Assembly: GCF_010500845.1 (NCBI RefSeq)
Contig: NZ_JAAAMI010000009.1
Span: 62,001 to 126,000, forward strand
Origin: Flagellimonas sediminis
Lineage (GTDB): Bacteria > Bacteroidota > Bacteroidia > Flavobacteriales > Flavobacteriaceae
Length of the DNA stretch: 64,000 bases
Direction: 5' to 3'
Below the pieces are notes generated by a model. It did no database searches. It had not been told where the DNA came from and saw only the letters and a program-made list of their open reading frames with translations. A program made the translations under genes and the position numbers. Positions 11,475 through 44,873 of the stretch are shown piece after piece (within the stretch, counting starts at the first letter, position 1; every line of letters begins with the position of its first letter).

Positions 11475-11707
11475 CCTCCTGCGAAGGGTGGTAATAGGGC
11501 CACCTCATCCCCATCTTTTAAAATGATGTTTTCATCCAAATTTTGGTTCACGGCCACTTGAATGGATTCTTGATCCATAATTCCATGTGGATTTAAACAC
11601 TTCAATTTTAATTCATATGCCGTAGTGGGTGCTGTCAAATTCAAGACCTCCTCATTTGTGCCTTTTGCTTCGGCAACCAGACCAAAATATTTTACGGTGA
11701 CCCTCAT
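11471..11707 (-). CDS. moaD: Molybdopterin synthase sulfur carrier MoaD
   Basis: A 78-residue ubiquitin-fold protein (MRVTVKYFGLVAEAKGTNEE) that ends in LLPPFAGG, the Gly-Gly tail that is adenylylated by MoeB and converted to a thiocarboxylate. The length fits MoaD proteins (about 80). It overlaps moeB by 4 bp and shares one base with the end of the MocA-like gene, consistent with translational coupling and balanced synthesis with MoaE. Confidence 0.95.
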   Translation of the reverse strand: MRVTVKYFGLVAEAKGTNEEVLNLTAPTTAYELKLKCLNPHGIMDQESIQVAVNQNLDENIILKDGDEVALLPPFAGG

Positions 11708-24629: not shown

Positions 24630-24694
24630 GTTCAATTGTTTAAGTAGTTGGAAAGGCATTTAACTATGTTAAAATCACTAATTTCCTATAATTT

Positions 24695-26522: not shown

Positions 26523-26543
26523 TTCTGTAAACATTAGTTTTAG

Positions 26544-29500: not shown

Positions 29501-29750
29501 TGACGGGAACTTCAATCGTTTTGTAACCGATATAGCTAATTACCAATGTCGCATCACTAGGGGCATCGATGCTAAAGTTACCGTCAAAATTGGTCTGGGT
29601 TCCATTGGTAGTTCCCTTGACCAGAACGTTGGCACCCGGTAAGGGCCCCGTCTCATCGGACACCGTACCCGTTACGGTCTGGGCTTGCGCAAAACCCATA
29701 CATAGTACAGCGGCCAAAAAAATAATTCTCTTGAAAAAAGGTTTTTTCAT
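26544..29750 (-). CDS. SusC/RagA-family TonB-dependent outer-membrane transporter
   Basis: A 1068-residue protein with signal peptide (ending FAQAQ), an N-terminal carboxypeptidase-regulatory-like domain (VTGTVSDETGPLPGANVLVKG, about 23-100), plug domain (RLDEIVVTGYGSQAKKDLTG to SIYGSRAANGVIIITTKKG) and a large beta-barrel ending in a terminal LGLNVTLK strand. It lacks the STN signalling domain seen in the second SusC of this window, in agreement with the absence of a sigma/FecR pair here and the presence of an AraC regulator. It imports oligosaccharides with SusD. Confidence 0.96.
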   Translation of the reverse strand: MKKPFFKRIIFLAAVLCMGFAQAQTVTGTVSDETGPLPGANVLVKGTTNGTQTNFDGNFSIDAPSDATLVISYIGYKTIEVPVNGQSTINVTMEEDANRLDEIVVTGYGSQAKKDLTGAVTVVDTDELKSVPATTFSQQLQGRAAGVTIVNDARPGGEATVRIRGFGTLGNNDPLYIIDGVPSQRQSNLNPNDIESLQVLKDASSASIYGSRAANGVIIITTKKGKMGKPTITYNTFYGIQSPAKDAESLNAEELGRYLYLADLYAGKTPSHGQYTFGPNGEVTIPDYVFPSGANEGDPGTDPSLYALEPGNIYAITRSADTNWWDAVTRSAPIQSHNISASGATESARYAFSLGYFSQESVVKFASYDRVSLRANTEFKTLNKKLTIGENFTTSFDNLKGNVSNDDEQSPVSGAYKHHPLLPIYDIAGNFAGSRGANLGNNFNPYARLFRDQDDRRYGLRLLGNAYGNYELIPGLDLRTSFGVDARVQRVRNLDRPQPEYVEGNFIRSSEAREQYEYQWTWTNTLTYAKTFNEVHNFKAYVGVESIQQFEERFEARRERYAFGTTNILSYLDLGDATTATNRGYVFQDYTLWSQFGQLNYDYDGKYLAQVILRNDSSSRFQQASRSAFFPAFSLGWRMSDEKFMDNVTWIDNLKLRYGWGKTGNQQIGDYNAYTTYRSDILTGGYPIDGSTGSPQIGFAPRAFGNPNAKWEATTSNNIGMDLVMLDNKLSVNLDVWKRVTTDMLINVPVTYTAGQADEPAFNVGQMTNKGIDLGISYGDKKGDFSYEVSANFSTYTNNVDALEGESTRIFGQSRRIPALSITEAGSPLSSFYGFKTLGIFQSQAEADAWAPYGDYNAPGKFRVADINNDGVINDDDRTIIGSPHPDFTYGININLSYKNLDLNIFGNGSQGNDVFNYVRYFADFNTFQGNRSKRALYDAWQPTNPTADPSTWVAANPGATSPIMDANDQISSRPSSYLIEDGSFFRLKNIQLTYNFPEKIISTIGLDRAQVYVQAQNIATFTKYTGLNPEVQLSNADDSRRNLTLGYDGGSQPVAKTISLGLNVTLK

Positions 29751-29984: not shown

Positions 29985-30007
29985 GACCTGGTCATCTTTA
30001 TCAGGTC
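29985..30007 (-). terminator. Stem-loop overlapping the stop of the GMC small-subunit gene
   Basis: GACCTG (29985-29990) and CAGGTC (30002-30007) pair around an 11-nt loop; the right arm covers the stop codon. On the minus strand TGTTATTTT follows, so it is a plausible, moderately strong terminator. Confidence 0.45.
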
Positions 30008-30708
30008 AATAGATTCCCGTGTTCGTCCCATTCCGCAATTTCGTTCCGTTTACTTTGGTCCACACATTTGGCAATCCATTTGGGATCATAGGCCACTCCA
30101 TGCTGATCGAGCACATCTTGGGGAACACCATCCCATATATTGGGTTGATTACCTTTATAGCCCAAATCGACAATTCCTACTCTGGAAGTGTAATATCCGG
30201 TAACCGTTAAATTTCGCATCAAGGCAAAAAATTGAATTTCCAAAGGTTGTTCGTCCAAAGGAATTTCGGCATCCTGAAATGCAATGGTATCCAGAATTTG
30301 CTTTTGCTGTTCCAAGGATGCACTTTTAAATTCTTGATTGAAATGAGAATTACTTTGATGATCCAACCACATAAGACCACCTTTCAAAGTGAGTTCCAAT
30401 TCAGGAATATCCTTGGCTATGAACTCAATAAACTCAGGTACTTCGGCCTCGATTGGTCCCCCGTGAGGTTCCTTTGGAGGTAAAATGATGGTACTCAACA
30501 AGGTAATGGTCTCCATTTCATGTTCGTTGAACAATTGGATTGCCTTTAACTTTTCAATACGTTCCAACTCTTCAGGAGTCCTTCCAAAGTAAGGGCCTTC
30601 AGATGGTACAGGTACCTCAATTTCGGTATCCGACTTACATCCGTGGAACATCAGGGCAGAAGCACCAGCCCCCATAATGATGGTTTGTATACTTTTTCTT
30701 CTGTCCAT
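30001..30708 (-). CDS. Tat-exported small (gamma) subunit of a GMC dehydrogenase
   Basis: The 235-residue protein is of the gluconate 2-dehydrogenase subunit 3 family. It starts with a twin-arginine motif (DRRKSIQTIIMG) and has a lipobox at FHGC, with Cys24 as the lipid site, so it should be a Tat-exported lipoprotein. The family core is visible as LFNEHEMETITLLSTIILPPKE, LDTIAFQDAEIPL and FFALMRNLTVTGYYTSRVGIVDLGYKG. In three-subunit sugar dehydrogenases the small subunit carries the folded flavin subunit through Tat. It is 3 bp after the GMC gene, which has no signal of its own. Confidence 0.9.
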   Translation of the reverse strand: MDRRKSIQTIIMGAGASALMFHGCKSDTEIEVPVPSEGPYFGRTPEELERIEKLKAIQLFNEHEMETITLLSTIILPPKEPHGGPIEAEVPEFIEFIAKDIPELELTLKGGLMWLDHQSNSHFNQEFKSASLEQQKQILDTIAFQDAEIPLDEQPLEIQFFALMRNLTVTGYYTSRVGIVDLGYKGNQPNIWDGVPQDVLDQHGVAYDPKWIAKCVDQSKRNEIAEWDEHGNLLT

Positions 30709-30711
30709 TTC

Positions 30712-32433
30712 CTATATATTTTGTTGTTTCAATTGTTCAATGATGTAGTCCGATGCACGCCAAGACAATGCCAAGATGGTCCATGTACAGTTTTTGTCCG
30801 CCTGTGAGGTAAAAGGCCCTGCATCTACAACAAACACGTTGTTCACATCATGCAATTGGTTGAATTTGTTGGTCACTGAGGTTTTAGGATCGTCTCCCAT
30901 TCTTGTGGTTCCCACCTCATGAATGATTCTCCCAGGTGCAAGTAGTCCGTAATCAATATCTGCAGAAGGTTTATCGCCCAAGGGCTCACCCCCCATATTG
31001 TGGATGATTTCTTCAAAAGTATCTTGCATGTGTTTGGCCTGCTTCACTTCCAAGTCAGACCATCTATAGTTGAACTTGAGCACCGGAATTCCAAATTGAT
31101 CCACAGTGGTGGGATCGATTTCACAATAATTTTCTTTTCGGGCGATGCCTTCACCCCTGCCGGCCATGTGAATCACTGAGCCGTAATATTTTTTCACATC
31201 GTCACGCAGCACATCGCCATATCCTCCCACATTGAGGCCAAAGAACTTATTGAACTCATTGGCATTAAAACCAAAGCCATAGTTGGGTTGACGCATTCCT
31301 CCCCCTATTTCAATATGATAACCACGCGGAAAATCCAATTTGCTATTATCTCCCCACCATGGAGAATACACGTGCATGCCACCTGTACCATCTTCATTAT
31401 AGGAAACCTTTCGGTTCATAAGGGCAGGGATAAATGCAGAACGGCTTGCCCCAGTGGAATCATGGAGGTACCTACCCACATGATCGCTACTATTACCCAA
31501 TCCATTTGGATGTTGTTTGCTCTTGGAATTCAACAAGATACGAGCAGAACTACAGGCAGAAGCGGCAAGTACAATAACCTTACCCCTTAGTTTATATTCC
31601 TTTCTGTCATCCTTGCTGATATAGGACACCCCTGTAGCCTTGCCTTCCTCATCGGTTGTAACCTCACGCACCACGGAATTGACATATATTTTGACCTTAC
31701 CTCCACTCTTTTGTGCCGGGAATATTAAACAACTACCGGATGAAAAATCGGCATATACGGAACAAGATCTGGAACATTGTCCACAGTAAAAGCAAACACC
31801 CCTGTCCTTGTTGATTCGCTTGGTCAACATGGAAAGCCGACCAGGAATTACAGGTACCCCTGATTTTTGGGCTCCGTTTATATAGAAAAGCTCATGCAAT
31901 CTTGGTTTTGGCGGCGGTAGAAAAAATCCATCAGGATCATTTTCCAAACCTTCATTGGTACCGTATACCCCAATGAGTTTGTCTACCTTATCATAATACG
32001 GTTTCACATCTTCATAGCCTATGGGCCAATCATCCCCATGACCGTCACGGGTCTTTCCTTTAAAGTCCTTTGGGCCAAAACGAAGCGAAATCCTTCCCCA
32101 GTGATTGGTCCTACCGCCCAACATATGGGAACGGAACCAATCAAACTTTGTCCCAGGTTCATGGGTATAGGGTTCCCCTTCAATTTCCCAGCCACCATAG
32201 GCCATATCCCAACCTCCAAAGGCCCTTGTGGTACCTGCACCCCTGTTTGGGGATTCGTAGGGCCACTTCAATTGGGTCATTGTTTTGGGATCGGCAGGGT
32301 CAAAAAACGGACCCGCTTCCACAACGGCAACATTTAATCCGGCATCAGCCAGTTGTTTGGTTGCCATACCCCCTCCTGCTCCTGAACCAACAATGATCAC
32401 ATCATATAGTTCCGGCGCTTCTTTGATCTGCAT
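30712..32433 (-). CDS. GMC-family flavin dehydrogenase subunit with a four-cysteine Fe-S-like motif
   Basis: The 573-residue protein begins with an FAD loop (YDVIIVGSGAGGGMATKQL) and ends with the GMC C-terminal region (HEVGTTRMGDDP, CTWTILALSWRASDYI). It has no signal peptide. C214-x2-C217-x2-C220-x3-C224 resembles the iron-sulfur ligand region of the Fe-S-containing FAD-dependent glucose dehydrogenase alpha subunits. The likely reaction is C3 or C1 oxidation of a sugar or glycoside in the periplasm, with electrons leaving through the Fe-S centre to a cytochrome; a fitting heptaheme cytochrome lies 164 bp upstream. C3 oxidation is favoured by the DUF1080 gene nearby but not proven. Confidence 0.92.
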   Translation of the reverse strand: MQIKEAPELYDVIIVGSGAGGGMATKQLADAGLNVAVVEAGPFFDPADPKTMTQLKWPYESPNRGAGTTRAFGGWDMAYGGWEIEGEPYTHEPGTKFDWFRSHMLGGRTNHWGRISLRFGPKDFKGKTRDGHGDDWPIGYEDVKPYYDKVDKLIGVYGTNEGLENDPDGFFLPPPKPRLHELFYINGAQKSGVPVIPGRLSMLTKRINKDRGVCFYCGQCSRSCSVYADFSSGSCLIFPAQKSGGKVKIYVNSVVREVTTDEEGKATGVSYISKDDRKEYKLRGKVIVLAASACSSARILLNSKSKQHPNGLGNSSDHVGRYLHDSTGASRSAFIPALMNRKVSYNEDGTGGMHVYSPWWGDNSKLDFPRGYHIEIGGGMRQPNYGFGFNANEFNKFFGLNVGGYGDVLRDDVKKYYGSVIHMAGRGEGIARKENYCEIDPTTVDQFGIPVLKFNYRWSDLEVKQAKHMQDTFEEIIHNMGGEPLGDKPSADIDYGLLAPGRIIHEVGTTRMGDDPKTSVTNKFNQLHDVNNVFVVDAGPFTSQADKNCTWTILALSWRASDYIIEQLKQQNI

Positions 32434-32514
32434 AATAGATTTTCTTTGAAATAATTGTTTGGGAAAATAGTGTTATGGCCCATGAAAATTAGGGAATTGA
32501 AAACAAAACGGACC

Positions 32515-32531
32515 CAAATTCAAGAATTTTA
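32515..32531 (-). promoter_or_regulatory. Shared 17-bp palindromic motif, copy 3 (GMC operon upstream)
   Basis: Minus-strand TAAAATTCTTGAATTTG, 82 bp before the GMC start. The TTG at its end and a TAATTTTC 23 bp further on could serve as the -33 and -7 parts of a Bacteroidota promoter (TTG-N17-23-TAnnTTTG), so a bound regulator would contact the promoter. The promoter reading is tentative. Confidence 0.5.
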
Positions 32532-32597
32532 TAAAATATGAAGTTTTCTTGGCGAATCGCCTATGGTATTTTTTCCAGTGCCGGATTTCTTACGTAA

Positions 32598-33833
32598 TCA
32601 GTTTGCTTGTTTTTGAAGTATCCCGTCCACATAAATCCCAATAAGATGTGTCCTGATATTGACCGATGTTTCTTTAGCGTTGTCTTCTAGTTGTACTTTC
32701 ATGGTCTGGGAAGGAAAAAGTGGCATATGACAACTGATGCAATTATTTAAATCGGACAAATTTAGACCCGAACCATCGTGAAGGTCTTTTGGGGACATAT
32801 GGCATTCAATACACTTGGAATTAAAATGTTCCGTTTGCCCACGTTGACCCTGATGAGGGTCATGACAGGTGGTGCAGCTTAAGGTACTTGAGTTTTTATA
32901 GCACTCACTGCTTTTAAGGAGACCATACTGGTTGCCATGCACATCAAGTTGTGCCTCGGGTCTTCCAAAGTTGTAGTTTTTCGCATAGTCGTCCAATCGT
33001 TCCCCGGTTACAAATGAAAAAGGGTTGTCCTTTATTTGAATAGCGCGCAGCCCAGAATGGCATTGGACACAAATGTCCATTTTCAATTGCCTGGCCAACG
33101 TGTCTATTTTGATCACCACATCTTCATCCAATTGCTGTGGGTTACCGGTTCTATAATCAACATGCTTTTTTAGGGGGCCATGGCACCGTTCACAATCTAT
33201 GCCATAAATAAAGGACTCTCTTTCATAAATATTGGTGTTTCCTTTAAAATCACCGTTCTTGGCAAACGTTACATGACATTTGATACAGTTATCCGTTACC
33301 GACCTGTTGAATTTATAGTTCGGATAGCCGGGACTGTTGATAAAATCATCGGTGAGTGTAAAATATGATAGCTGTAGTTGCGTAAGAAAATCTTCCTTGA
33401 ACGTCAAATAGGATTGGCCTTTTACCCCGGAACCGACAACAATATCCAAACGGGATTTATCCATTATTTCCCCCGTAGTTTTGGAAGATATGGTTTGATA
33501 ATATGTATCTCCCTCATGTATCATCCGTGCCACGCCATCAATGAGTTCAACTTCATGGGACGGATTATCGAAAGGTCCTTTCAAGGTCTCTTCACTTGCA
33601 ATTGCCGAGGTGTTGAAATGGGGTGTATTTATGTGGGTTTTATAGATATTTTGATGACAGGGAATACAGGATTGGGATCCTGCAAATTGCTCACCATTGT
33701 AATGAGTAGGCATCTCTTTGTCCACAGTTTGATAGACTTCTTTCTCTCCTGCGTCCATAAGAAAAAACAAAAGTATGACCCCTACAAGAGCGATCAGGAC
33801 ATATCCTATTTTAGTTTTGATATTCACAAGCAA
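32598..33833 (-). CDS. Membrane-anchored heptaheme cytochrome c
   Basis: The 411-residue protein has one N-terminal membrane anchor (about 8-26) and seven CxxCH heme sites: residues 56-60, 183-187, 214-218, 255-259, 320-324, 341-345 and 365-369. The CERCHGP and CIECHMSP contexts resemble cytochrome c554/NrfB-like multiheme proteins. It is the last gene of the hexuronate operon, 10 bp after uxaC, and directly precedes the GMC dehydrogenase operon. An electron-acceptor role for that dehydrogenase is inferred from position and from known alpha-beta-gamma dehydrogenases, whose beta subunit is usually triheme. Confidence 0.9.
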   Translation of the reverse strand: MLVNIKTKIGYVLIALVGVILLFFLMDAGEKEVYQTVDKEMPTHYNGEQFAGSQSCIPCHQNIYKTHINTPHFNTSAIASEETLKGPFDNPSHEVELIDGVARMIHEGDTYYQTISSKTTGEIMDKSRLDIVVGSGVKGQSYLTFKEDFLTQLQLSYFTLTDDFINSPGYPNYKFNRSVTDNCIKCHVTFAKNGDFKGNTNIYERESFIYGIDCERCHGPLKKHVDYRTGNPQQLDEDVVIKIDTLARQLKMDICVQCHSGLRAIQIKDNPFSFVTGERLDDYAKNYNFGRPEAQLDVHGNQYGLLKSSECYKNSSTLSCTTCHDPHQGQRGQTEHFNSKCIECHMSPKDLHDGSGLNLSDLNNCISCHMPLFPSQTMKVQLEDNAKETSVNIRTHLIGIYVDGILQKQAN

Positions 33834-33843
33834 TTTTATTCAG

Positions 33844-35265
33844 TCAATTATCTAAAGAATTATGTTGAAAATCAAAATATTTCTTGGCATTTCCATAGCA
33901 AATATCCATGACCATATTGCCAATCAGCTCCACATCATTGGGTAATTCACCTTTTTCAATCTCTTCTCCCAATAGATTGCAAAGTATCCTTCTAAAGTAT
34001 TCATGGCGGGGATAGGAAAGAAAACTTCTTGAATCCGTGAGCATTCCAATGAAGCAACTCAACAGCCCCATGTTGGACAGCGCGTTCAATTGTTTCGTAA
34101 TACCATCTTTTTGGTCTAAAAACCACCAGCCCGATCCAAACTGCATTTTTCCCTTTATGGTTCCATCATTGAAATTGCCAATCATGGCCGCCAACACTTC
34201 ATTATCCGATGGATTCAAATTGTACAAGATGGTCTTTGCAAGCTTGTCCTTTGAATCCAAGGCATCCAAAAATCGGGACAAGGTATAGGCTTGCGGATAA
34301 TCACCCATGGAATCCCAACCCGTATCCGGACCCAATTTATGAAGCATACGGGAGTTATTATTTCGAAGTGCTCCCAAATGGAACTGTTGCACCCATCCTT
34401 TGGCATGGTATTGTTCTCCCAGAAATAATAGTAGTGCCGTCTGGTATTTCTCAATTTCAACAGGAGTCAACTGTTCCTCCTTTTCTTTTTTGGTGAAAAT
34501 GGATTCAATTTCAGTGTCCGAAGCTTCCGTATAGGGAACATAACTCAACCCGTGATCGGAAAGTCTACAGCCGTTTTCATGGAAATAATCGACTCGTTTG
34601 GCCAATGCATCACATAAAGTCTTGAAGGAATTAATTTCCAACCCACTAGCCTTCTCCAATTTCCGTAAATAGGATTTGTATCCGTCATGGGAAATGAGCA
34701 GCGCTTTGTCCGGCCTGAAAGATGTACTGATGTGGACTCCGTATCCGCTCTTGGCCAATTTCCTGTGATGTTCCAAGGTATCAGTAGGATCTTCCGTGGT
34801 ACAGACCACCTCAACATTCATGTTTTGGATCAGCTTTTGGCAGCTATATGCTGCGCTGTTCAATCTTGTGGAAGCTTCTTGATATATTTCTTGGGCAGTT
34901 TTCTTGTTCAACAGCAAATCGATGTCAAAATACCGCTTAAGCTCCAAATGCGTCCAATGGTACAATGGATTTCTTAGGGTTTGGGGAACTGTTTCTGCCC
35001 ATGCCTGAAATTTTTCAGCATCACCTGCATTACCTGTAATGTATTTTTCATTAATCCCGACCGTACGCATGGCCCGCCATTTATAATGATCGCCATTGAT
35101 CCAAACTTGGGTGAGATTTTCAAAAACATGGTCCGCTGCAATTTGGTCCGGAGGCAAGTGGCAATGATAGTCTATGATGGGTTGTTTTGCCGCATAGTCA
35201 TGATAGAGTTCTTCCGCAAATTTGCTTTGCAGCAAAAAATTATCTGTTATAAAATGGTTTTTCAT
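33844..35265 (-). CDS. uxaC: Glucuronate (uronate) isomerase UxaC
   Basis: A 473-residue cytoplasmic enzyme of the amidohydrolase fold, the family's usual length. Its N-terminal metal motif is DYHCHLPPDQIAAD, followed by YKWRAMRTVGINEKYITG; further conserved parts are TTEDPTDTLEHH, FHLGALRNNNSRM and the C-terminal GMLTDSRSFLSYPRHEYFRRILC. It interconverts D-glucuronate and D-fructuronate (or galacturonate and tagaturonate). UxuA and a mannonate-type SDR in the same operon favour the glucuronate route. It is 49 bp after the upstream oxidoreductase gene. Confidence 0.96.
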   Translation of the reverse strand: MKNHFITDNFLLQSKFAEELYHDYAAKQPIIDYHCHLPPDQIAADHVFENLTQVWINGDHYKWRAMRTVGINEKYITGNAGDAEKFQAWAETVPQTLRNPLYHWTHLELKRYFDIDLLLNKKTAQEIYQEASTRLNSAAYSCQKLIQNMNVEVVCTTEDPTDTLEHHRKLAKSGYGVHISTSFRPDKALLISHDGYKSYLRKLEKASGLEINSFKTLCDALAKRVDYFHENGCRLSDHGLSYVPYTEASDTEIESIFTKKEKEEQLTPVEIEKYQTALLLFLGEQYHAKGWVQQFHLGALRNNNSRMLHKLGPDTGWDSMGDYPQAYTLSRFLDALDSKDKLAKTILYNLNPSDNEVLAAMIGNFNDGTIKGKMQFGSGWWFLDQKDGITKQLNALSNMGLLSCFIGMLTDSRSFLSYPRHEYFRRILCNLLGEEIEKGELPNDVELIGNMVMDICYGNAKKYFDFQHNSLDN

Positions 35266-35314
35266 CCTCTTTTCTTACTCCCTTGAATATTCTTCCTATT
35301 CAAACTCTTTTAAA

Positions 35315-36511
35315 CTACCCCAAAATATCGTTTACCATTTTTGTGTCAGTTTGTACGATGGTATTCCCATACATGGCATCGAGGCCCATCTGCACACACA
35401 TTGCGGCCATGGCCCCTGTTTTGGCATTGGATATGGGCCGTGTGTTGTTAACAATATTGTCCCTAAAGTCAATCAAGGCCTGTTTACTGGGATCGTCATG
35501 GTCAAAATTTACGGGTATGCCCCTGTCCTGGTCCCAATTCAAGGTGGCGCCAGAAACACCATCTACCTGGCCCATTTCTTTTTGGTAGCCTCCTTCCGGG
35601 TAATACCAAGCCTTAACATAATCCAGGATATAGGCTCCTTTATCTCCCATCACTTTCACTTTATAGTCGCCCATGGCATTGCTGGTCAAACAAGTAAAAG
35701 ATGCCCTTACTCCATCGGGATAGCTATAAATCAGATGGATGTTGTCATAGGTTTCACGACCATCCTTCCAATAATCGATTCCTCCCACACCCATGACCTT
35801 TTCAGGCATAGAACCCAGTACCCAATTGGCAAAATCCAACTGGTGCGAACAAAGTTCCGCCAAAAGTCCTCCTGAAAACTCACGGTACATCCGCCAATTG
35901 ATCATACGCTCCCATTTGGGATCGGGAACGGGCCTTCGCCAGTTGTTGTTTCGGTTCCATTGGCATTCAAAAGCGGTAATTTTACCAATCTTCCCTTTTT
36001 TAATTTCATCAACAATGTGAGTGTATAACCGAGAACTATGGTATTGGTGGCCCGCCTGAAAAATAGTACTTGAGTTTTCCGCAGCATTCACCAACGATCT
36101 TATGCCATCATATCCCTTGGCCATGGTTTTTTCGCCGTACACATGTTTGCCTGCTTTTAGGGCATCGGTCACGATTTGGGAGTGTGTGCTGAACGGAGTT
36201 GCGACCAGTACGGCATCCACATTCTTATCATCCAACAACTTTCGGTAATCCTCATAACCTTTGGCCTTACCTTCCACTTTGGAAAGGCCCGAACTGAGCC
36301 TGAAAGGCATGATATCACTACAGGCCACCACCCTCATATTCGGTATTTCGTTGATAAAAGGAATAAGTCCGCCACCACGGTCCCCCGTTCCAATAACCCC
36401 TACATTGATGGTTTCATTGGCACTTGGGTTTGCAGCACCCAAAACCGTTGGTGCGTACATCACAACAGAACTGGCCAAACTACCCTTTACTATAAAATCG
36501 CGTCGCTTCAT
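35315..36511 (-). CDS. Tat-exported Gfo/Idh/MocA-family oxidoreductase (first)
   Basis: The 398-residue protein starts with a twin-arginine signal (MKRRDFIVKGSLASSVVMYA). The NAD-binding fold (INVGVIGTGDRGGGLIPFI) and the GKHVYGEKTMAKG loop follow; the usual EKP is EKT here. The C-terminal domain has GLLAELCSHQLDFANWVLG. Exported members hold NAD(P) tightly and can act without free cofactor turnover, as in GH109 glycosidases and glucose-fructose oxidoreductase. In this operon it could process 3-keto sugars or glycosides; the exact reaction is unknown. It is 6 bp after its paralogue. Confidence 0.88.
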   Translation of the reverse strand: MKRRDFIVKGSLASSVVMYAPTVLGAANPSANETINVGVIGTGDRGGGLIPFINEIPNMRVVACSDIMPFRLSSGLSKVEGKAKGYEDYRKLLDDKNVDAVLVATPFSTHSQIVTDALKAGKHVYGEKTMAKGYDGIRSLVNAAENSSTIFQAGHQYHSSRLYTHIVDEIKKGKIGKITAFECQWNRNNNWRRPVPDPKWERMINWRMYREFSGGLLAELCSHQLDFANWVLGSMPEKVMGVGGIDYWKDGRETYDNIHLIYSYPDGVRASFTCLTSNAMGDYKVKVMGDKGAYILDYVKAWYYPEGGYQKEMGQVDGVSGATLNWDQDRGIPVNFDHDDPSKQALIDFRDNIVNNTRPISNAKTGAMAAMCVQMGLDAMYGNTIVQTDTKMVNDILG

Positions 36512-36517
36512 CTTTGT

Positions 36518-37846
36518 TTAAAGTTTAGGTTCCCATCCATTTTCATACTCCCGCTTCCAGCCCCTCATAGCTTTTTCACTGTTCAACACCTTGCCTGTTT
36601 GGGTATCAATCTGAATGGTATGGCGGGCATCGTGGGCCATATTGCCCAAGTGACAGAGCATGGTGGAAACACTGGCGTCCCTTATATCCGAATTTAAGGA
36701 CGTGTCCTTTCTGATGGCATTGAAAAAGTTGCCCACATGGTCCACATCCAGTCCGCCAATGCCTTGGGTATTTAAAGTGGCACTGATGTTTGCCTCATCT
36801 TCCTGTTTGATCAGGTTTCCACCCAGATCATATAATTTATAAAAGTTCCGGCTCAACTCCATAACACCTTTACTACCATAAATGGTAATGCCACGGCCAG
36901 GTCGTTCCGGTTTCATAATACCACGGCTGTGGGAGGTCCATGTGATGAATTTATCGCCTGGGAAGGTATAGGTTACTTGTTGGTTATCTGGGAATTCCCA
37001 GTCATCATCAAAGGTATACTTTCCACCAAATGCCGTAACCGTTTCAGGAAGGTCCACACCCAAGGCCCAACGGCAGATATCGATCTCGTGGGTACCATTG
37101 TTGTGTATTTCCCCTGTTCCCCAATTTTTAAACCAATGCCAATTATAGGGATGGACATTGTCTCGATAACTTTCCCGTGGGGCCGGGCCCTGCCACATAT
37201 CCCAATCCAAGGTCTGGGGCACATCGATTATTTTACCATGTCCGATGGACTCCCGATTGTTGGAGTAATACGCCTCTCCTTTGAAGACATTCCCTAGTAC
37301 TCCTTTTTTGATATCCTCCACAGCCATCATAGAAGTTTTGGCCGATCGCTGCTGGTTTCCCATCTGTACCTTTTTCCCATACTTGTTACTGGCCGCCACC
37401 AAAAGATCATTTTCATGGGGATCATGGCTACAGGGTTTCTCCACGTACACGTGTTTTCCCGCCTGTAGGCCCATAATGGCCATCGGGGCGTGCCAGTGAT
37501 CCGGTGTAGCAATAAAGATGGCGTCCACATCCTTATCTTCAAGTACTTTACGAAAATCCTTTTCCACCTTTGGAACATACCCGATATGTTCTTGGCACCA
37601 AGCATTGTGTTCTTCCAAAATCGTATCATCCACATCACAGCTATACAAAATCTTGGCATTGGCATCTTGATGAATGGCCAAAACATGGGCCTTGGCACGG
37701 CTCCTCACACCGATTACCGCACAGTTGATTTGGTCATTGGCCCCCAGAATTCGGGCATTGGCCCAAGAGGGTAATACCATACCGCCCAAGGTAACGGCGG
37801 CAGTTCCGGTAGTTGTTTTTTTGATGAAATCGCGTCTTGTGGTCAT
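36518..37846 (-). CDS. Tat-exported Gfo/Idh/MocA-family oxidoreductase (second)
   Basis: The 442-residue protein has a twin-arginine signal (MTTRRDFIKKTTTGTAAVTL), the nucleotide-binding start INCAVIGVRSRAKAHVLAI and the catalytic loop ATPDHWHAPMAIMGLQAGKHVYVEKPCSHD, which retains EKP. HNNGTHEIDICRWALG supplies the conserved His. The pattern is near that of the bacteroidal oxidoreductases that include GH109, but the GH109 activity cannot be claimed. It sits 4 bp after the DUF1080 gene. Being exported, it probably acts on the same periplasmic substrate as the DUF1080 protein and the GMC dehydrogenase. Confidence 0.88.
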   Translation of the reverse strand: MTTRRDFIKKTTTGTAAVTLGGMVLPSWANARILGANDQINCAVIGVRSRAKAHVLAIHQDANAKILYSCDVDDTILEEHNAWCQEHIGYVPKVEKDFRKVLEDKDVDAIFIATPDHWHAPMAIMGLQAGKHVYVEKPCSHDPHENDLLVAASNKYGKKVQMGNQQRSAKTSMMAVEDIKKGVLGNVFKGEAYYSNNRESIGHGKIIDVPQTLDWDMWQGPAPRESYRDNVHPYNWHWFKNWGTGEIHNNGTHEIDICRWALGVDLPETVTAFGGKYTFDDDWEFPDNQQVTYTFPGDKFITWTSHSRGIMKPERPGRGITIYGSKGVMELSRNFYKLYDLGGNLIKQEDEANISATLNTQGIGGLDVDHVGNFFNAIRKDTSLNSDIRDASVSTMLCHLGNMAHDARHTIQIDTQTGKVLNSEKAMRGWKREYENGWEPKL

Positions 37847-37850
37847 GGTC

Positions 37851-39215
37851 TTATTCTTTTTCGGTGGTTTTTATCTTGATGTTCCTAAAACTTACCCTAT
37901 CCCCATGGTCTTGCAATAAAATGGGACCCGTTGGAGCTTCGCCAAAATTGGGCCATACCACATACTTACTTTCGGAAACAAGCTTTTTGAATTCGTCGCT
38001 TCCCCGTTCGTATTCCAAGACCTTCATACCATTGAGCCAGTGTTCCACATGATTTCCTTTGGAAACGATATGGGCGGTATTCCACTCCCCAATCGGGTTG
38101 GCGGGTTTATTAGAATCCGCTTTGATAAGATCGTAGAGCGATGCCAAAGTTCGGCTCCCTTCGTGGTTACCCAATTTGGCATCGGGATGGACAGCATCAT
38201 CCAGAATTTGATATTCCAACCCAATGGATGACCCTGGGCCTTTGTTCAAATCGGTATTCACATAATATTTAATGCCGCTATTGGCACCTTCGGTCAATTT
38301 AAAATCAACCATCAATTCAAAATCCCCGAATAGCTCTGTGGTCACAATATCGCCGCCAGCCGCCGACTCTTCACCACCGGATGACAAAACGGTCAAAACC
38401 CCATCTTCTATCTCCCAGCCTTTATCCGGAAAACTATCCAATCGGGCCCCTCTCCATCCATTGGTGGTCTTGCCATCCCATAACAATTTCCATCCATTTT
38501 TGGCCTCGTCCACATTGATAACGTTTTGGGTCACCACGGGTTGCAGGGACATGGGTTTGGTATATTTTGAAAGACTATCGGTCAAAATCTTGATATTGCG
38601 CCACGCAATCTCCGTTCCCGACTTTTGATCTTTTCCAATGCTGTGTACTTGTAGCGCGATAAACCCACTTGGTGTTTTATCATCTATCAAATGGGCGGCA
38701 GGAACACCATTGATCCATGTTTTGATGGTATCACCGATCGCTTCGATGCGATAATGGTTCCAATCGTTTTGTCTGAAGGCTTTTTGGGCCTCTGGATTGT
38801 CGTCCAAGGTCACGAGCCAACCCCTTCTTCCCTCATCATAAATGCCCGCACTCCAGGCCCTTTCCGAAGGATCGATTTCAATCTGATAGCCGTGCACCCT
38901 TCCATTTTGGTAGTATGGAAAACTATTGCTCCTAATCTGTATTCCTGAATTCATGGTAGAATCTACTTTGTAATCCAACTCCAAAATGAAATCATCGTAC
39001 ATCTTATCGGTGGTCAAAAAGGAATTTGGGGTATCATGGACCGTGGAGCCTACAATGGCATCGTCCTCAACCGCATAATTGGCTTCGCCTCCCTTTTGGT
39101 TCCATCCGTTGAGCGTTCCATCAAACAAATCGACCCAAGGGGTGTCATCCTTGGGAGTTTCGGCACAGGCCCAACACAGCAGAAGTACCAATGTCCCGTA
39201 TTTTAGTTTGTTCAT
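37851..39215 (-). CDS. Lipoprotein with two DUF1080 (3-keto-disaccharide hydrolase-type) domains
   Basis: The ATG at 39215 gives 454 residues with a lipoprotein signal ([11 protein letters not shown]); a start at 39227 is also possible, whereas the longer frame to 39440 invades the TRAP gene. Two tandem domains are visible. The first is about 30-215 ([40 protein letters not shown]) and the second 245-450 ([41 protein letters not shown]). The family, PF06439, includes enzymes cleaving 3-keto-glycosides. Its placement with a GMC dehydrogenase and exported Gfo/Idh proteins suggests that it cuts 3-oxidised glycosides. Confidence 0.88.
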
Positions 39216-39253
39216 TTTATGTGTCATATTTAAAAGTTTATTGTATAATTCGA

Positions 39254-40549
39254 TTATAGTCCAAACAAACCCGGTAGCCAAAGGGCCAGTTCGGGGATAT
39301 ACGTGATCAGGAACAAGGCCAGTATCATTGCCGCAAAAAGGGGCAACAAGGGTTTTATCACTTTTTCTATGGATGTCTTTGCAATACCCACCCCCACAAA
39401 GAGTACCGAACCGACCGGAGGGGTGCACAAGCCGATACATAGGTTCAATATCATGATGATACCAAAATGTACCGGATCGATTCCCAATTTTGTCACAATA
39501 GGCAAAAATATCGGGGTGAAGATGAGTACTGCCGGGGTGATATCCATAAAAATGCCCACAAACAACAGTATCAGATTGATGATGAGCAACAAAGCAATCT
39601 TGTTATCGGTAATGGACAAAAGCCCGGTACTGATATCCTGAGGAATATGCTCAAAGGAAAGGGCCCAAGACATGCTCATGGAAGCTGCGATCAACAACAT
39701 GACCACTGCGGTAGTAGATGAGGCATTTAAAAAGATCTGGGGCAATTTTTTCAAGGTAATCTGCTTATAAGCAAAGCCCAACAGAAGACTATAGAGTACT
39801 GCGATAGCAGAGGCTTCGGTGGCCGTAAAGATGCCCGCTACAATACCCCCTATGACCAAAACCAATAAAAATAAGCTCGGGACGGCATCAATAAAGGTTT
39901 TAAAGATTTGCCTAAAAGTGCTACGTTCCCCAGTGCCATATCCTTTTTTCTTGGCCCAAAAAATGGTGACCACCATCAACAACAAGCCTGTGAGAAGACC
40001 AGGGATATAACCCGCCAAAAAGAGTGCTGCTATGGACGCCCCACCACTAGCCAGTGAATACACAATCAAAATATTGCTAGGCGGTATGACCAATCCCGTG
40101 GTGGCAGAAGTAATGTTCACTGCTGCCGCGAATTCCCTATCATACCCTTCTTTTTCCATCTCTGGCCCGAGGATACTGCCCATGGCCGAGGCCGAGGCCA
40201 TGGCCGACCCTGCAATGGCCCCCATAAACATGGCCGAAATGATATTGATCAAGGCGAGGCCTCCCGGCATAGCCCCTACCAAAGATTTGGCAAAAGCAAT
40301 CAATCTGTGGGCAATCCCCCCCTGGTTCATCAATTCTCCCGATAAAATAAAGAAAGGAATGGCCAGTAAGGCAAAACTATCCAACCCAGTAGCCATCCTT
40401 TGGGAGATGGTCGCCAATGCAGGCAAGGTAGGAACGCTCACCAATAAGGTCAACATGGAAGATATGGCAATGCTCCACGCTACGGGAGTACCGATTGCCA
40501 AGAGGCCCACAAAACTGATAATCAATACAAGTAAGGGGATATATTCCAT
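39254..40549 (-). CDS. TRAP transporter large permease (DctM type)
   Basis: A 431-residue, very hydrophobic protein with about 12 membrane segments and family motifs such as [44 protein letters not shown] and the late [17 protein letters not shown]. It forms the Na+-coupled permease core of a TRAP uptake system together with the DctQ and DctP genes directly upstream. It should import a carboxylate; the catabolic genes of the operon point to a hexuronate. Confidence 0.95.
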
Positions 40550-40554
40550 AGGGT

Positions 40555-41016
40555 CTATTCGGATATGATGTCAAAAAAATTGTAGTAAACCACAATCAGC
40601 CCACTTAACGGAATTACAATATACACGTATGGCAAAGGTACCCCCAATGCAGGGGATAACTGCTTTAGTTCATAGGTGGTAAACACTAACCATCCACCGC
40701 CCGTCACCATAGCGGCCAAACAAAAAATTATAATGAAAATGGACACGCCTCTTTTTAACCATTTCTGATTTTTCACACTGGCCCGTTTGGCCAATACATC
40801 TATGGCCACATGACCCTTTTTCCCAGATACAAAGGCAGCCCCCAACAGGCCCAGCCAGATCATCAGGAATCGGGCGAGTTCATCCGTGAAAGCGCTCGGC
40901 TCCCCTAGAACATATCTGCTGAACACCTGCCAAAGCACGTTCAGCACCATTAGGCCCATCAGCAACACCAGAAGATGTGCCAAAATACTGTCCAATGTTT
41001 TTTTGAAGCCCATCAA
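40555..41016 (-). CDS. TRAP transporter small permease (DctQ type)
   Basis: A 153-residue protein with four hydrophobic segments and the family pattern VLWQVFSRYVLGEPSAFTDELARFLMIWLGLLGAAFVSGKKGHVAIDVL. It overlaps the DctP gene by 4 bp and is 5 bp before the DctM gene. It is the small membrane subunit that pairs with DctM. Confidence 0.94.
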   Translation of the reverse strand: MMGFKKTLDSILAHLLVLLMGLMVLNVLWQVFSRYVLGEPSAFTDELARFLMIWLGLLGAAFVSGKKGHVAIDVLAKRASVKNQKWLKRGVSIFIIIFCLAAMVTGGGWLVFTTYELKQLSPALGVPLPYVYIVIPLSGLIVVYYNFFDIISE

Positions 41017-41993
41017 TTTGTCATGTTTTTGATCTGTTGTATCATGTTGTTCAATTCTTCATCCGCTTCATACGCTTTGTACATTTCCTTTGTCATTTGG
41101 ATGAAAGGCTCTTTGTTGGGATATGAAATCTTCACCCCTGCCTTCTGCACTTCTTCCAACGCCTCCGCTTCTGAATCCGCCCACAATTTTCGTTGATGGC
41201 CCAAAGACCTTTTCACCGCTTCGTTTACCCATCCTTGCTCTTGCTCTGAAAGTTTGTTCCAAAATTGGGTGCCTACAATCAATACATCAGGGGAAAAAGT
41301 GTGCTCATCCAATGCATAGTAGGGACAAACTTCATAGTGTTTGGAAAGGTAAAAACTGGGCGGATTGTTCTCTGCCCCGTCCACTACTCCTTGTTGAAGG
41401 GATGTGTACAATTCTCCCCAAGAAATGGGGGTTGGCGACCCTCCAAGGCTTTTGACCATATCCATGGCCGTGACACTTTCCATCACCCTGATCTTGAGCC
41501 CCTTTAGATCTTCTGGGGAATCAACAGGCTCGTGTTCGGTGTAAAAGCTTCTAAACCCGGCATCGTAATAGCCCAGTCCTTTCAATCTAAATTGCTGTGC
41601 ATTGTCCAACAACGCTTGTCCGATGGGGCCATCCAGTACTTCAAAGGCATGCTTTCTGCTTTCAAAAAGATAGGGTAGTCCCAAAATGCGGGTCTTGGGG
41701 GCAAAGTTTTCCAGGGTAGCGACCGATACCTTGGTCATGTCTAGACTACCCAATTGTATCAATTCCAAAATCTCCCGTTCGGTTCCCAATTGTTGGTTTG
41801 GATAAATTTCAATGCGAAGTTTCCCTCCTGAAATATTTTCTATGTCTTCACCCATTTTTACCATGGCCCTGTGCACGGAATGGTTCACATCCAATCCATG
41901 GGCCAACCGGATGGTCTTCACGTCATTTTCTTGCATGCAGCCGGTAAACTGTGCAATCAAGACAAGCGATAAGACCACCCTGAAAAATTTCAT
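41013..41993 (-). CDS. TRAP substrate-binding lipoprotein (DctP type)
   Basis: The 326-residue protein has a lipoprotein signal (LVLIAQFTGC) and the DctP core: IRLAHGLDVNHSVHRAM, LGTEREILELIQLGSLDM, YYDAGFRSFYT (with the Arg that usually binds the substrate carboxylate), LKIRVMESVTAMDMVKSLGGSPTPI and LQQGVVDGAENNPPSFY. Closely related binders in hexuronate operons bind glucuronate or galacturonate; this specificity is inferred from the UxaC/UxuA neighbours. A lipid anchor is unusual for Gram-negative DctP but common in Bacteroidota. Confidence 0.94.
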   Translation of the reverse strand: MKFFRVVLSLVLIAQFTGCMQENDVKTIRLAHGLDVNHSVHRAMVKMGEDIENISGGKLRIEIYPNQQLGTEREILELIQLGSLDMTKVSVATLENFAPKTRILGLPYLFESRKHAFEVLDGPIGQALLDNAQQFRLKGLGYYDAGFRSFYTEHEPVDSPEDLKGLKIRVMESVTAMDMVKSLGGSPTPISWGELYTSLQQGVVDGAENNPPSFYLSKHYEVCPYYALDEHTFSPDVLIVGTQFWNKLSEQEQGWVNEAVKRSLGHQRKLWADSEAEALEEVQKAGVKISYPNKEPFIQMTKEMYKAYEADEELNNMIQQIKNMTN

Positions 41994-42027
41994 TTTACTA
42001 TTATTTGATAAAGCTTAAGTGCTATTC

Positions 42028-43233
42028 TCATGTCCACGATCTTTCAATGCCCAACATCAATCCTCTCAATTCCGCCAATCCCCTGAGTCTACCAATAGCC
42101 GAATACCCCGGATTGGTATGTTTTTTCAGATCGTCCAGCATTTGATGGCCATGATCGGGCCTCATCGGAATTTGCCAGTCCGTTCTTCCTTCCTGTTTAC
42201 GGCGTTGTTGTTCCTTCAGGGCTTTCTCCATTATATCGAACATATCCACGTCCCCTTCCAGATGGTTGGCTTCATAAAAATTGCCTTTTCCGTCCCTTTT
42301 TGTGCTTCGCAAATGCATAAAATGAACCCGATCGGCAAACCTTTGGAACATGGTCCCCAAATCATTGTCCGCCCTCACTCCCAACGATCCCGTGCAAAAA
42401 GTAATGCCGTTGTGGATGGATGGCACCTCCTTAAAAATATGGGCATAATCCGCTTCGGTGCTCATAATTCTTGGCAGGCCCAAAATGGGAAACGGCGGAT
42501 CATCCGGATGGATGCACATCAAAATCCCATGTTCTTCTGCCACTGGGACAACTTCCTTTAAAAATTCAACCAGATTGCCTCGCATTTGTTCGGCATCAAT
42601 GCCCTTGTAGGTATCCAAAATGGTTTGGAACTTTTGCAGGTTATACCCGTTTTTAGCATCCAAATACCCTTCGGAGGAACCCGGAAGTCCTGCAATAATG
42701 TTCTTGACCAACAACTGAATTTGATCTTCGGACATCCCATCAAAATATGCTTTTGCTTCAGCAATCTGTTCCTTGGTATAGTCCTTTTCCGCTCCGGGCC
42801 GTCTTAAAATATGGATATCAAAAGCAGCCAAGGCATTGAATTCAAAAAACAAGGCCTTGGAACCATCTTCCACAGTGTATGCCAGATTGGTGCGCGTCCA
42901 ATCCAAAACGGGCATAAAATTGTAGCAGACTACCTTTACATCGCACTGGGCCAAATGCATCAGGCTTTGTTTATAATGGGCAATATGTTCTTTGTAACTT
43001 CCTGAACGGGTCTTGATGTTTTCATGTATTGGGAGTGATTCCACAACCGACCATCTTAGTCCGACATTTTCCAACATGGTTTTTCGTTCCAAAATGCTTT
43101 GCACGGGCCAAACCTCCCCATTTGGAATATGATGCAATGCCGTGACAATACCTGTGGCACCGGCCATTTTGATGTCTTCCAACGAAACAGGGTCATCTGG
43201 CCCGTACCAACGCCAAGTCTGTTCCAATCCCAT
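42028..43233 (-). CDS. uxuA: Mannonate dehydratase UxuA
   Basis: The ATG at 43233 (or 43239) gives about 401 residues, the UxuA length, and starts with [20 protein letters not shown], the family's typical opening. The longer frame overlaps the upstream SDR gene and is not used. Conserved parts are [63 protein letters not shown] and [11 protein letters not shown], and [12 protein letters not shown] supplies further metal/catalytic residues. It converts D-mannonate to 2-keto-3-deoxygluconate. KDG kinase and aldolase are not in this window. Confidence 0.96.
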
Positions 43234-43246
43234 TTGCATTCCTTGT

Positions 43247-44065
43247 TTATACACCGCTATAAGCACTAAATCCCCCATCAATAGGTATGATGGCACCTGT
43301 AACAAAACTGGCAGCATCGCTGATGAGCCAATGCACGGTACCGTGCAATTCATCGGCTTTCCCAAATCGCTTCATGGGGGTGTTATCTATTATTCTTTTA
43401 CCACGGTCGGTATAGCTGCCATCTTCATTTAAGAGCAGTTTTTTATTCTGGTTGCTGATAAAAAATCCTGGGGCTATGGCATTTACGCGAAGGCCTTCCC
43501 CAAATTTCAGGGCCAGTTCGGTGGCCATCCATTTGGTGAAATTATCAATGGCCGCCTTGGATGCCGAATAGCCTACCACACGGGTAAGTGCCCTTGTTGC
43601 TGCCATGGAGGATACATTAAGGATGCATCCATGACCTTGGTCCGCCATTTGCTTTCCAAAAACCAAGGAGGGGATTACGGAACCATCCAAATTCAATTCG
43701 GACACTTTCCTAAAGTCTTCCATTTGCAGGTCGAAGATGGTCTGTCCTTCTCCTATCACAGCACCTGGCATATTACCCCCCGCGGCATTGATGAGTACAT
43801 CTATGCTACCCCATTCCTGCACCACCTTGCTCTTAACTTTCTCCAGAAACTCTTTATCCAACACACTTCCCGAAAATCCAAACACATCGGAATAAGTTTC
43901 CTTCAACAATTTGACCTTTGCAATTACTTTGTCTTCGGTCTGGCCCAAAAGAACAATCTTGGCTCCTTCTGAAAGCAGGTACTCCGCCATGCTTCCTCCC
44001 AATACTCCGGTGGCACCGGTAATCAAGATGACTTTATTGGATATATCGAACAATGATTTTCCCAT
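43247..44065 (-). CDS. SDR-family D-mannonate (fructuronate) oxidoreductase
   Basis: The ATG at 44065 gives 272 residues, matching homologues that start near [21 protein letters not shown]. Short-chain dehydrogenase features are TGATGVLGG for NAD(P) binding, [11 protein letters not shown] and the SYK triad at [23 protein letters not shown], with the C-terminal [10 protein letters not shown]. The order SDR-UxuA with UxaC in the same operon points to fructuronate reduction to D-mannonate, replacing the classic UxuB. A gluconate 5-dehydrogenase-like activity is a possible alternative. It is the first gene of a ten-gene operon ending at 32598. Confidence 0.88.
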
Positions 44066-44078
44066 TCCTGTATGATGA

Positions 44079-44092
44079 CCCAAATATTTGGG
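44079..44092. promoter_or_regulatory. Perfect palindrome upstream of the hexuronate operon
   Basis: CCCAAATATTTGGG is a perfect 14-bp palindrome, 14 bp before the SDR start codon in the divergent region shared with the Nudix-fold regulator gene. Bound protein here would block the operon's transcription or translation start. It is a candidate operator for that regulator. Confidence 0.45.
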
Positions 44093-44174: not shown

Positions 44175-44873
44175 ATGAGCAATAAAAAGGTATTGGAGCC
44201 GCCGAATCTTCAAAATTTAACAGTAAACGCTGATTCATTTGAATGTTCTATAACAACCGATATTGCCGTATTCGGATATGTGGACCATCGGTTGAAACTA
44301 TTGCTCACTAAACGTTCGGTTGGGGAATTTACCAACCACTGGATGTTACCTGGGGGGGTTATGGAAGCCAACGAGACCCTGAAGGATTGTGCCAGTAAAG
44401 TATTGCTTGCCCTGACTGGGGTAAAGGACATCCATTTTGAGCAGGTGAAAGTGTATTCCGATTTAAAAAGGCATCCTTTAAAGCGCGTAATCACCGTTTC
44501 TTTCTATGCCATGGTAAGGCCGGAAAATCATCCCCTTTTTCTTAAGGGAAATGTGGAACAGATCTCATGGTTTGATATGGAGGAAATCCCTGTGAACCTG
44601 GGATTTGACCATGCCCAAATCATCCATGACGCCCATATGTTCCTTAAAAACAACCTTAAGGACCGATTGATCATGGGGGAATTATTACCCAAACAGTTCA
44701 CCCTATCAGAACTCCAAGGTCTATATGAAGACATTTTGGGGATCAAATTGGATAAACGTAATTTTAGAAAACGAATCTTTCAGATGGAAGTGTTGAAAAA
44801 CACCGGGGAAGTCAAGGCAGGCATTAAAGGTGGCCCCGTTCTTTATGAATATGATGTTTCGGTAAAAGGATGA
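44175..44873 (+). CDS. Nudix-fold (NrtR/AraR-type) transcriptional regulator with degenerate Nudix box
   Basis: The 232-residue protein has an N-terminal Nudix fold (about 25-155; LPGGVMEANETLKDCASKVLL) and a C-terminal winged helix (160-232; LLPKQFTLSELQGLYEDILG, DKRNFRKRIFQME). In the Nudix consensus G-x5-E-x7-REUxEExGU, the REUxEE part reads K75-V-L-L-A-L80, so all three metal-binding Glu are lost and hydrolysis is not expected. Non-catalytic NrtR-family members in Bacteroidota sense sugars or intermediates. Divergence from the uxa/uxu operon makes it the best candidate hexuronate regulator. Confidence 0.88.
   Translation: MSNKKVLEPPNLQNLTVNADSFECSITTDIAVFGYVDHRLKLLLTKRSVGEFTNHWMLPGGVMEANETLKDCASKVLLALTGVKDIHFEQVKVYSDLKRHPLKRVITVSFYAMVRPENHPLFLKGNVEQISWFDMEEIPVNLGFDHAQIIHDAHMFLKNNLKDRLIMGELLPKQFTLSELQGLYEDILGIKLDKRNFRKRIFQMEVLKNTGEVKAGIKGGPVLYEYDVSVKG

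Follow-up and report, generated by a model that had tools for sequence, protein, structure and literature searches.

Background

Glycosides can be broken down by way of C3 oxidation, and a stepwise 3-keto-glycoside pathway of Bacteroides and Alistipes (BT2156-BT2160), whose gene cluster features an AP_endonuc_2-type hydratase, was reportedly set out in a Nature paper of 2024. Within this cluster, BT2157 is described as a 3-ketotrehalose hydrolase and BT2158 as a glycoside 3-dehydrogenase (PMC9007349, PMC11300592). C3 oxidation followed by elimination is also known for GH4, GH109 and GH188 (PMC10755693) and for FAD-dependent glycoside oxidoreductases (PMC4650693), and an Agrobacterium O-glycoside eliminase acts on 3-keto-glucosides (PMC10628242). 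The chemistry is thus already known, and includes a glucuronide-3-dehydrogenase of solved structure (8tdi). Here we analyse a stretch of 64,000 nucleotides from Flagellimonas sediminis (assembly GCF_010500845.1, contig NZ_JAAAMI010000009.1, positions 62,001 to 126,000; hereafter the window), in which genes for a protein with two PF06439 domains (DUF1080, named 3-keto-disaccharide hydrolase in current Pfam; we call the protein DUF1080x2) and for two Gfo/Idh/MocA proteins (Gfo_A and Gfo_B) lie inside a set of genes for hexuronate uptake and catabolism. We consider it fairly probable that these genes form an operon which scavenges D-glucuronate and which includes an exported, oxidative step for glycoside cleavage.

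A glucuronate operon with a predicted exported cleavage step

The operon, which we term module 1, occupies positions 33844-44065 of the minus strand in the order uxuB-uxuA-dctPQM-DUF1080x2-Gfo_A-Gfo_B-uxaC. An original prediction, made from the sequence without database searches, had placed these genes in one minus-strand run together with a heptaheme cytochrome and a GMC dehydrogenase with its small subunit; Pfam and NCBIfam profiles recover all of the named genes on that strand and in that order, yet the run does not end at 30001 as had been supposed, since SusC, SusD and ASPIC/UnbV genes continue on the same strand.

All three enzymes of D-glucuronate catabolism exceed their NCBIfam curated cut-offs. 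These are the glucuronate isomerase UxaC (33844-35265; NF002794, 634.4 bits against 387), which has a single match in the host genome, the D-mannonate (fructuronate) oxidoreductase UxuB, of the short-chain dehydrogenase/reductase type (43247-44065, with an alternative TTG start at 44083; PRK08277, 362.6 bits against 281), and the mannonate dehydratase UxuA (42028-43278; TIGR00695, 573.9 bits against 199.55, and PF03786), whose real start may lie slightly downstream of the annotated one. The tripartite ATP-independent periplasmic (TRAP) carrier is complete by Pfam, comprising the solute-binding protein DctP (41013-41993; PF03480, 288.6 bits; TRAP_S1), the small membrane subunit DctQ (40555-41016; PF04290, 98.5 bits) and the large membrane subunit DctM (39254-40549; PF06808, 416 bits). 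The PDB chains closest to DctP are 4n8y, 4x8r and 4ovr, which we take to hold hexuronate ligands, and DctP itself probably binds a hexuronate. According to a review (PMC5812351), one large screen turned up binding proteins of the TRAP type for D-glucuronate/D-galacturonate.

The DUF1080x2 and Gfo genes sit between dctM and uxaC, on the same strand and with short gaps. DUF1080x2 (37851-39215; 312.5 bits over two stretches against a cut-off of 26.8) begins, by eye, with a signal and a cysteine that appear lipoprotein-like. Its residues 29-453 match structure 4jqt over nearly the full length (E 5.7e-165), an entry that carries only the name 'putative glycosyl hydrolase', and its C-terminal domain also matches solved single-domain structures. 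The two DUF1080 domains are 28% identical to each other and each has a separate conserved polar set, by which their roles are not told apart. From its sequence, DUF1080x2 is a predicted 3-keto-glycoside lyase, and perhaps combines lyase and hydratase activities. Gfo_A (36518-37846) and Gfo_B (35315-36511; Pfam and NCBIfam profiles) both have twin-arginine N-termini by eye, of which the NCBIfam TAT_signal_seq model matches only that of Gfo_A, a predicted substrate of twin-arginine export. The AlphaFold model of Gfo_A (mean pLDDT 87.7) is most similar to the Alistipes glucoside-3-dehydrogenase AL3 (8tdf/8tdh; Z 39.1, root-mean-square deviation 2.6 over 367 residues), with the next entry outside AL3 at Z 36.6, and the stretches AGKHVYVEKP and QMGNQ are common to both proteins. 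Because its best structural match is a glucoside-3-dehydrogenase, Gfo_A is predicted to be the oxidant of the glycoside at C3, and is a likelier one than the GMC dehydrogenase.

In the mechanism that we propose, whose order of steps and redox directions we infer from these resemblances, exported Gfo_A, with NAD bound tightly on export, would oxidise the terminal sugar of a glucuronide at C3, and DUF1080x2 would break the glycosidic bond by elimination and probably let water add back. Gfo_B, or Gfo_A working in reverse, would then reduce 3-keto-glucuronate, DctPQM would import the free D-glucuronate, and UxaC, UxuB and UxuA would convert it to 2-keto-3-deoxygluconate.

The original prediction had remarked that the operon holds no conventional uronidase gene, and the host genome as a whole agrees with this. 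In an assembly that is 99.95% complete, no match was found to GH67, GH115 or PF07470 (GH88, and presumably GH105 as well), in a search that did not extend to GH79, GH4, GH30 and GH154, and GH2 is represented by one weak partial match. Consequently, module 1 is the best candidate for glucuronate release in this organism. A parallel exists in sulfoquinovose clusters, where those without a classical glycosidase carry an NAD-dependent one (PMC10755693).

Recurrence of the gene pair and its link to hexuronate catabolism

Relatives of DUF1080x2 were detected in 44 of the 149 genomes of the host family (E 1e-60 or better, a few of them partial) and in 24 of the 295 genomes of a class-level sample (E 1e-100), the host being counted in both samples; the protein is 93-94% identical to three Allomuricauda/Muricauda records and 86% identical to a fourth. 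We read 128 DUF1080x2 loci (here and below, single loci of any kind are numbered with L), 48 from the family search and 80 named ones, the best 80 of a longer scan, with four DUF1080x2 sequences occurring in both subsets. The named loci span Bacteroidales, Planctomycetota, a Vicinamibacterales record and Akkermansia. A Gfo gene stands no more than two genes from DUF1080x2 in 119/128 loci (45/48 family and 74/80 named), a member of the Gfo_A group lies directly behind it in 98 (39/48 and 59/80), and the Gfo_B group is present in 54 (19/48 and 35/80). Given that a Gfo gene lies this close to DUF1080x2 in most of these loci, the pair is a real unit.

Genes for hexuronate catabolism are a recurrent addition to this unit, with uxaC inside the locus in 25 of the 128 (10/48 family and 15/80 named), uxuA in 7/48 and 13/80, and dctP in 6/48 and 10/80. 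We compared this proximity with that of single-domain DUF1080 proteins, counting only genomes with a uxaC match, a distance of 15 kb, and the DUF1080 proteins among the matches listed, from which weaker single-domain proteins are missing and most second domains of the same protein were dropped. In the same family genomes, uxaC was near 10 of 44 two-domain but only 2 of 75 single-domain proteins (p 0.0008), where the two-domain class is every PF06439 open reading frame of 440-600 residues, some of them not DUF1080x2 orthologues; both single-domain matches come from one genome (G020), and one of them is a split half of a DUF1080x2. In other families of the class the corresponding figures are 4 of 22 and 1 of 93 (p 0.005). 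Proteins of 360-440 residues, or of more than 600 (more than 505 in the class-level control), belong to neither class. Since the DUF1080x2-Gfo pair recurs and the hexuronate link exceeds both controls, the gene set of the window is beyond chance.

Hexuronate genes have joined DUF1080x2 repeatedly, in Bacteroidota and in a planctomycete. In a tree of 120 DUF1080x2 proteins, built by a quick method with SH-aLRT support only, 14 label changes are needed to account for the 24 rows with uxaC, or with uxuA plus uxuB; well-supported branches force at least seven of these changes, and the label is more clustered than in 500 shuffles. One locus from another family of the class (L210) holds the whole gene set in a new order. 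The downstream route also differs among lineages. In Flavobacteriaceae the route beside DUF1080x2 is that of UxuA, whereas in two Bacteroidales loci (L149, L156) and a planctomycete locus (L136) the DUF1080x2-Gfo genes are accompanied by uxaC, uxuB, a PfkB kinase, a 6-phosphogluconate dehydrogenase and a LarA-like protein; a further Bacteroidales locus (L151) has uxuB and the same kinase, dehydrogenase and LarA-like set with a partial uxaC. Pfam identification of this second route was made in L156 and L136, and that of the dehydrogenase on its relative in L147. Epimerisation of D-mannonate to D-gluconate is carried out by two groups of LarA homologues (PMC7583248), and these loci therefore probably represent a second way to use glucuronate, which would lead through a nickel-pincer epimerase to gluconate. 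Both types of route adjoin DUF1080x2-Gfo, and the cleavage module is therefore tied to two downstream routes that have UxaC and UxuB in common. The expected union of a candidate 3-keto-glycoside cleavage module with genes of hexuronate catabolism, frequently accompanied by TRAP uptake, is thus upheld by the search of other genomes that had been proposed as its check: the linkage of module 1 recurs across genera, families and phyla, and exceeds both single-domain controls.

The glucuronide substrate is further suggested by the occurrence of the DUF1080x2-Gfo module in ulvan-type loci elsewhere, with GH78 or PL28 (ulvan lyase) genes in 21/128 DUF1080x2 loci, three of which also have hexuronate genes. 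A more specific proposal would be an exported oxidative glucuronidase of marine Bacteroidota that lack classical uronidases, in which the two-domain DUF1080 protein both eliminates and hydrates and, with Gfo_A and Gfo_B, detaches saturated glucuronate from the rhamnose of ulvan-type oligosaccharides; in this full form we regard it as rather unlikely.

Several variants of the locus were also encountered. GH78 genes, sulfatase-GH78 fusions or PL28 genes stand beside DUF1080x2-Gfo in L045, L046, L048, L056, L129, L131, L134, L137 and others. L057, L058 and L059 have another, longer Gfo protein behind DUF1080x2, then a DUF6807 protein and a LacI regulator, and carry uxaC in divergent orientation. 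An ApbE-family protein (flavin mononucleotide transferase type) adjoins DUF1080x2 in L145, L146, L150, L153, L155 and L157 (Bacteroidales, Akkermansia), and L111 contains DUF1080x2-Gfo_A twice.

A probably separate GMC dehydrogenase module

Behind uxaC, on the same strand, follow a heptaheme c-type cytochrome (32598-33833; PF13435, PF14537), in whose translation we counted seven CxxCH motifs by eye, the large subunit of a GMC oxidoreductase (30712-32433; PF05199, PF00732), its Gluconate_2-dh3 small subunit (30001-30708; PF13618, 97.5 bits), a SusC-like TonB receptor (26544-29750; PF07715, PF00593), a SusD-like protein (24768-26534; PF07980) and an ASPIC/UnbV protein with FG-GAP repeats (21273-24659; PF07593, PF13517). 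In the original prediction the GMC dehydrogenase was the oxidant that acts at C3. A version of this idea, in which the dehydrogenase, its small subunit and the cytochrome oxidise C3 and DUF1080x2 and the Gfo proteins act afterwards, is the alternative that survives best, although we judge it unlikely. In the window, some 10 bp separate the start of the cytochrome gene from uxaC, and some 165 bp lie between the cytochrome and GMC genes. A GMC large subunit with a Gluconate_2-dh3 small subunit, both of which the window has, is a feature of the LacABC type. LacABC and a DUF1080 protein have been proposed to cooperate in the use of lactose by Caulobacter (PMC9007349).

The surroundings of GMC relatives in the family genomes (E 1e-150 or better; 34/149 genomes, three copies in the host, 38 places in all) bear on both sides of this question. 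Within 9 kb, or less where a stretch ends (six of the 38 are shortened on one side by a contig end or the chosen limit), the small subunit is present in 36/38 places, SusC in 14, SusD in 10, ASPIC in 10 and these last three together in nine, compared with Gfo in 11, DUF1080 in five, the cytochrome in two and uxaC in one; the profile search for PF06439 recovered four of five host control loci and missed the most divergent. The DUF1080 count stands against a rough expectation of about two (at some 10 DUF1080 genes per 4 Mb), which makes a functional tie between GMC and DUF1080 possible, and the two are adjacent in three of the 23 genomes that have both GMC and DUF1080x2, once with half a DUF1080x2. 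However, DUF1080 is absent from the other 33 places, over 9 kb or as far as the contig end. A full DUF1080x2 lies near GMC in only two, the window and L055 (Leeuwenhoekiella), the other three having half of one (L077) or other DUF1080 proteins (L238, L239). Moreover, GMC at 60% identity or more is found in only 4/128 DUF1080x2 loci, and the cytochrome in one. In a congener (L081), the genes from uxuB to uxaC keep the same order and are followed by others, including one for a CHAT-domain protein, with no cytochrome or GMC gene in the 6 kb behind uxaC, and L082 likewise has module 1 without GMC in the stretch read.

Given that GMC lies mostly apart from DUF1080 and that L081 has module 1 without it, two modules appear to stand side by side in the window. 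Accordingly, of the single joined system first envisaged, the union of cleavage and hexuronate genes stands, whereas the GMC genes are better read as part of a second, separable module (cytochrome-GMC-Gluconate_2-dh3-SusC-SusD-ASPIC), probably a separate periplasmic dehydrogenase, and the case for GMC as the C3 oxidant is weakened. The closest counterpart of this module is L195, which, besides the window, is the only one of the 38 places with a cytochrome near GMC; it holds GMC and Gluconate_2-dh3 together with a cytochrome relative (45%), SusC (77%), SusD (78%) and ASPIC (67%), and has neither DUF1080 nor uxaC. By sequence, the solved enzymes closest to GMC are named glucose and fructose dehydrogenases.

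In one GMC neighbourhood of the host family (L077:10567-16761), PSD1/PSCyt and DUF1501 proteins, which as a pair are typical of planctomycetes, come after GMC and its small subunit.

The Gfo proteins and the source of glucuronate

The AlphaFold model of Gfo_B (pLDDT 81.8) lies closest to NAD-dependent sulfoquinovosidases (Z 37.5), followed by levoglucosan dehydrogenase (37.0), and it also matches the glucuronide-3-dehydrogenase 8tdi (34.4). GH188 thus ranks first by fold, but many Gfo folds fall within 3 Z units, so that the ranking is weak evidence of function. Gfo_B is predicted to perform either a second redox step or the reaction of an NAD-dependent glycosidase. We also considered it as an orthologue of 8tdi and rejected this, as other Gfo enzymes score higher by both sequence profile and fold.

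The Gfo proteins might instead be self-contained NAD-dependent glycosidases of the GH109/GH188 kind acting on glucuronides, with DUF1080x2 serving another 3-keto sugar or salvage. This is distinctly improbable, even though the fold of Gfo_B comes nearest to sulfoquinovosidases, which likewise act on a sugar with an acid at C6. Where clusters have no classical glycosidase, such enzymes do take its place (PMC10755693). Apart from the closeness of competing folds, DUF1080x2 has a Gfo gene as neighbour in 119/128 loci, and the Gfo_B group appears in only 54 of the 128. Furthermore, Gfo_A is closest to the dehydrogenase of a stepwise pathway, AL3, which we assume to need a separate lyase.

Several observations nevertheless weigh against a glucuronate operon with its own oxidative cleavage step. 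Neither Gfo protein reaches the NCBIfam equivalog cut-off of 750 bits for BT_2158 (Gfo_A 153.6, Gfo_B 93.1), nor that of 650 bits for the BT_2159 disaccharide 3-dehydrogenase (Gfo_B 38.1, Gfo_A 23.7). The operon has no AP_endonuc_2 hydratase, only UxuA coming near PF01261 (31.0 bits against 31.1), and AP_endonuc_2 was seen in 2/127 scanned neighbour representatives of other loci. In a related system, deletion of BT2157 or BT2158 left growth on raffinose-family sugars unaffected (PMC11501099). The single partial GH2 match of the host genome, in a frame of 367 residues, does pass its cut-off (21.7 bits against 21), and the carrier could take up glucuronate that is already free, with no need of cleavage. 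Finally, 103/128 DUF1080x2 loci have no uxaC in reach and 21/128 lie behind msrA, and hence the role of the cleavage module is not restricted to hexuronides. In the msrA loci (e.g. L033, L083, L093, L098) DUF1080x2-Gfo follows msrA directly and hexuronate genes are absent.

That the operon takes up free hexuronates which other organisms have set loose, with DUF1080x2-Gfo acting on a neutral glycoside as a mere neighbour in a sugar island, would suit these last two counts, but we give it little credence, because the link to hexuronate genes arose on several separate occasions, with varying gene order and two kinds of downstream route, exceeds the single-domain DUF1080 controls, and in the window takes the form of DUF1080x2-Gfo placed on one strand, with short gaps, between dctM and uxaC.

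Other features of the window

A NUDIX-winged-helix regulator (NrtR/AraR-like; 44175-44873, plus strand; PF21906, PF00293, PF19368) diverges from the operon, with a GH29 gene, also divergent, beyond it at 44985. Relatives of the regulator occur in 6/128 DUF1080x2 loci, and in L079, L081 and further loci they are transcribed divergently to uxuB; it is the probable regulator of module 1. A scan for promoters and terminators gave counts no higher than in shuffled sequence (28 against 30.5, and 9 against 16.0) and does not inform the operon borders, and a viral scan returned one match of 44 residues near a contig end. Elsewhere, positions 6977-14608 hold molybdopterin cofactor genes (MoeA, MoaA, MoaC fused to a molybdopterin-binding domain, MoaE, ThiF), with XdhC and an aminotransferase beyond them, and positions 47442-52880 encode a protein of 1812 residues with many near-identical acidic repeats resembling thrombospondin type 3 repeats, opposite which lies a probably spurious open reading frame of 655 residues.

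Significance and comparison with known systems

If the proposed role of module 1 is correct, some glucuronate of marine (and gut) polysaccharides is freed without a classical uronidase, and counts of glycoside hydrolases would miss this release. GMC, cytochrome and SusCD genes beside such operons should then not be assumed to be members without a test, and the two-domain DUF1080 group represented by 4jqt would gain a testable substrate class. Our literature searches found nothing joining ulvan with DUF1080 and nothing on glucuronide-3-dehydrogenase; for DUF1080, 3-keto and glycoside together they found only PMC9007349, and for ulvan and MocA, among the matches listed, only PMC11036162 was relevant by its title. 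As far as this literature extends, what is new is that a two-domain DUF1080 protein and its Gfo partner are embedded in a glucuronate operon with TRAP uptake, that this pair is linked time and again to hexuronate and ulvan-type loci, and that it usually lies apart from the GMC unit.

Among described systems, UxaC/UxuB/UxuA-TRAP hexuronate operons share with module 1 the three enzymes and a full DctPQM, but not the exported DUF1080x2-Gfo genes inside it. The three-part LacABC dehydrogenase of Caulobacter, which lies near a DUF1080 gene (PMC9007349), recalls the GMC, small subunit and cytochrome genes near DUF1080x2 in the window; unlike LacABC as described there, the GMC unit of this lineage is apart from DUF1080 in 33/38 places. 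GH188 and GH109 enzymes have the Gfo fold and transient C3 oxidation, and GH188 is found in sugar-acid clusters without a classical glycosidase (PMC10755693), yet these are one-enzyme systems, whereas module 1 encodes a separate DUF1080 protein next to its Gfo genes. The P2B11 glucuronide-3-dehydrogenase (8tdi) belongs to the same Gfo superfamily, is matched by Gfo_B (E 3.1e-16) and would, by the title of its structure, catalyse the reaction that we infer here, although it is nearest to neither Gfo protein, ranking 39th by fold for Gfo_B and 16th for Gfo_A. The stepwise pathway of Bacteroides and Alistipes (BT2156-BT2160) likewise combines a Gfo/Idh/MocA glycoside 3-dehydrogenase with a PF06439 protein, and Gfo_A is nearest to AL3. 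Module 1 differs from it in its two-domain DUF1080 protein, its lack of an AP_endonuc_2 hydratase gene, sequences that are far from the named equivalogs, and the TRAP uptake and UxaC/UxuB/UxuA genes that it carries.

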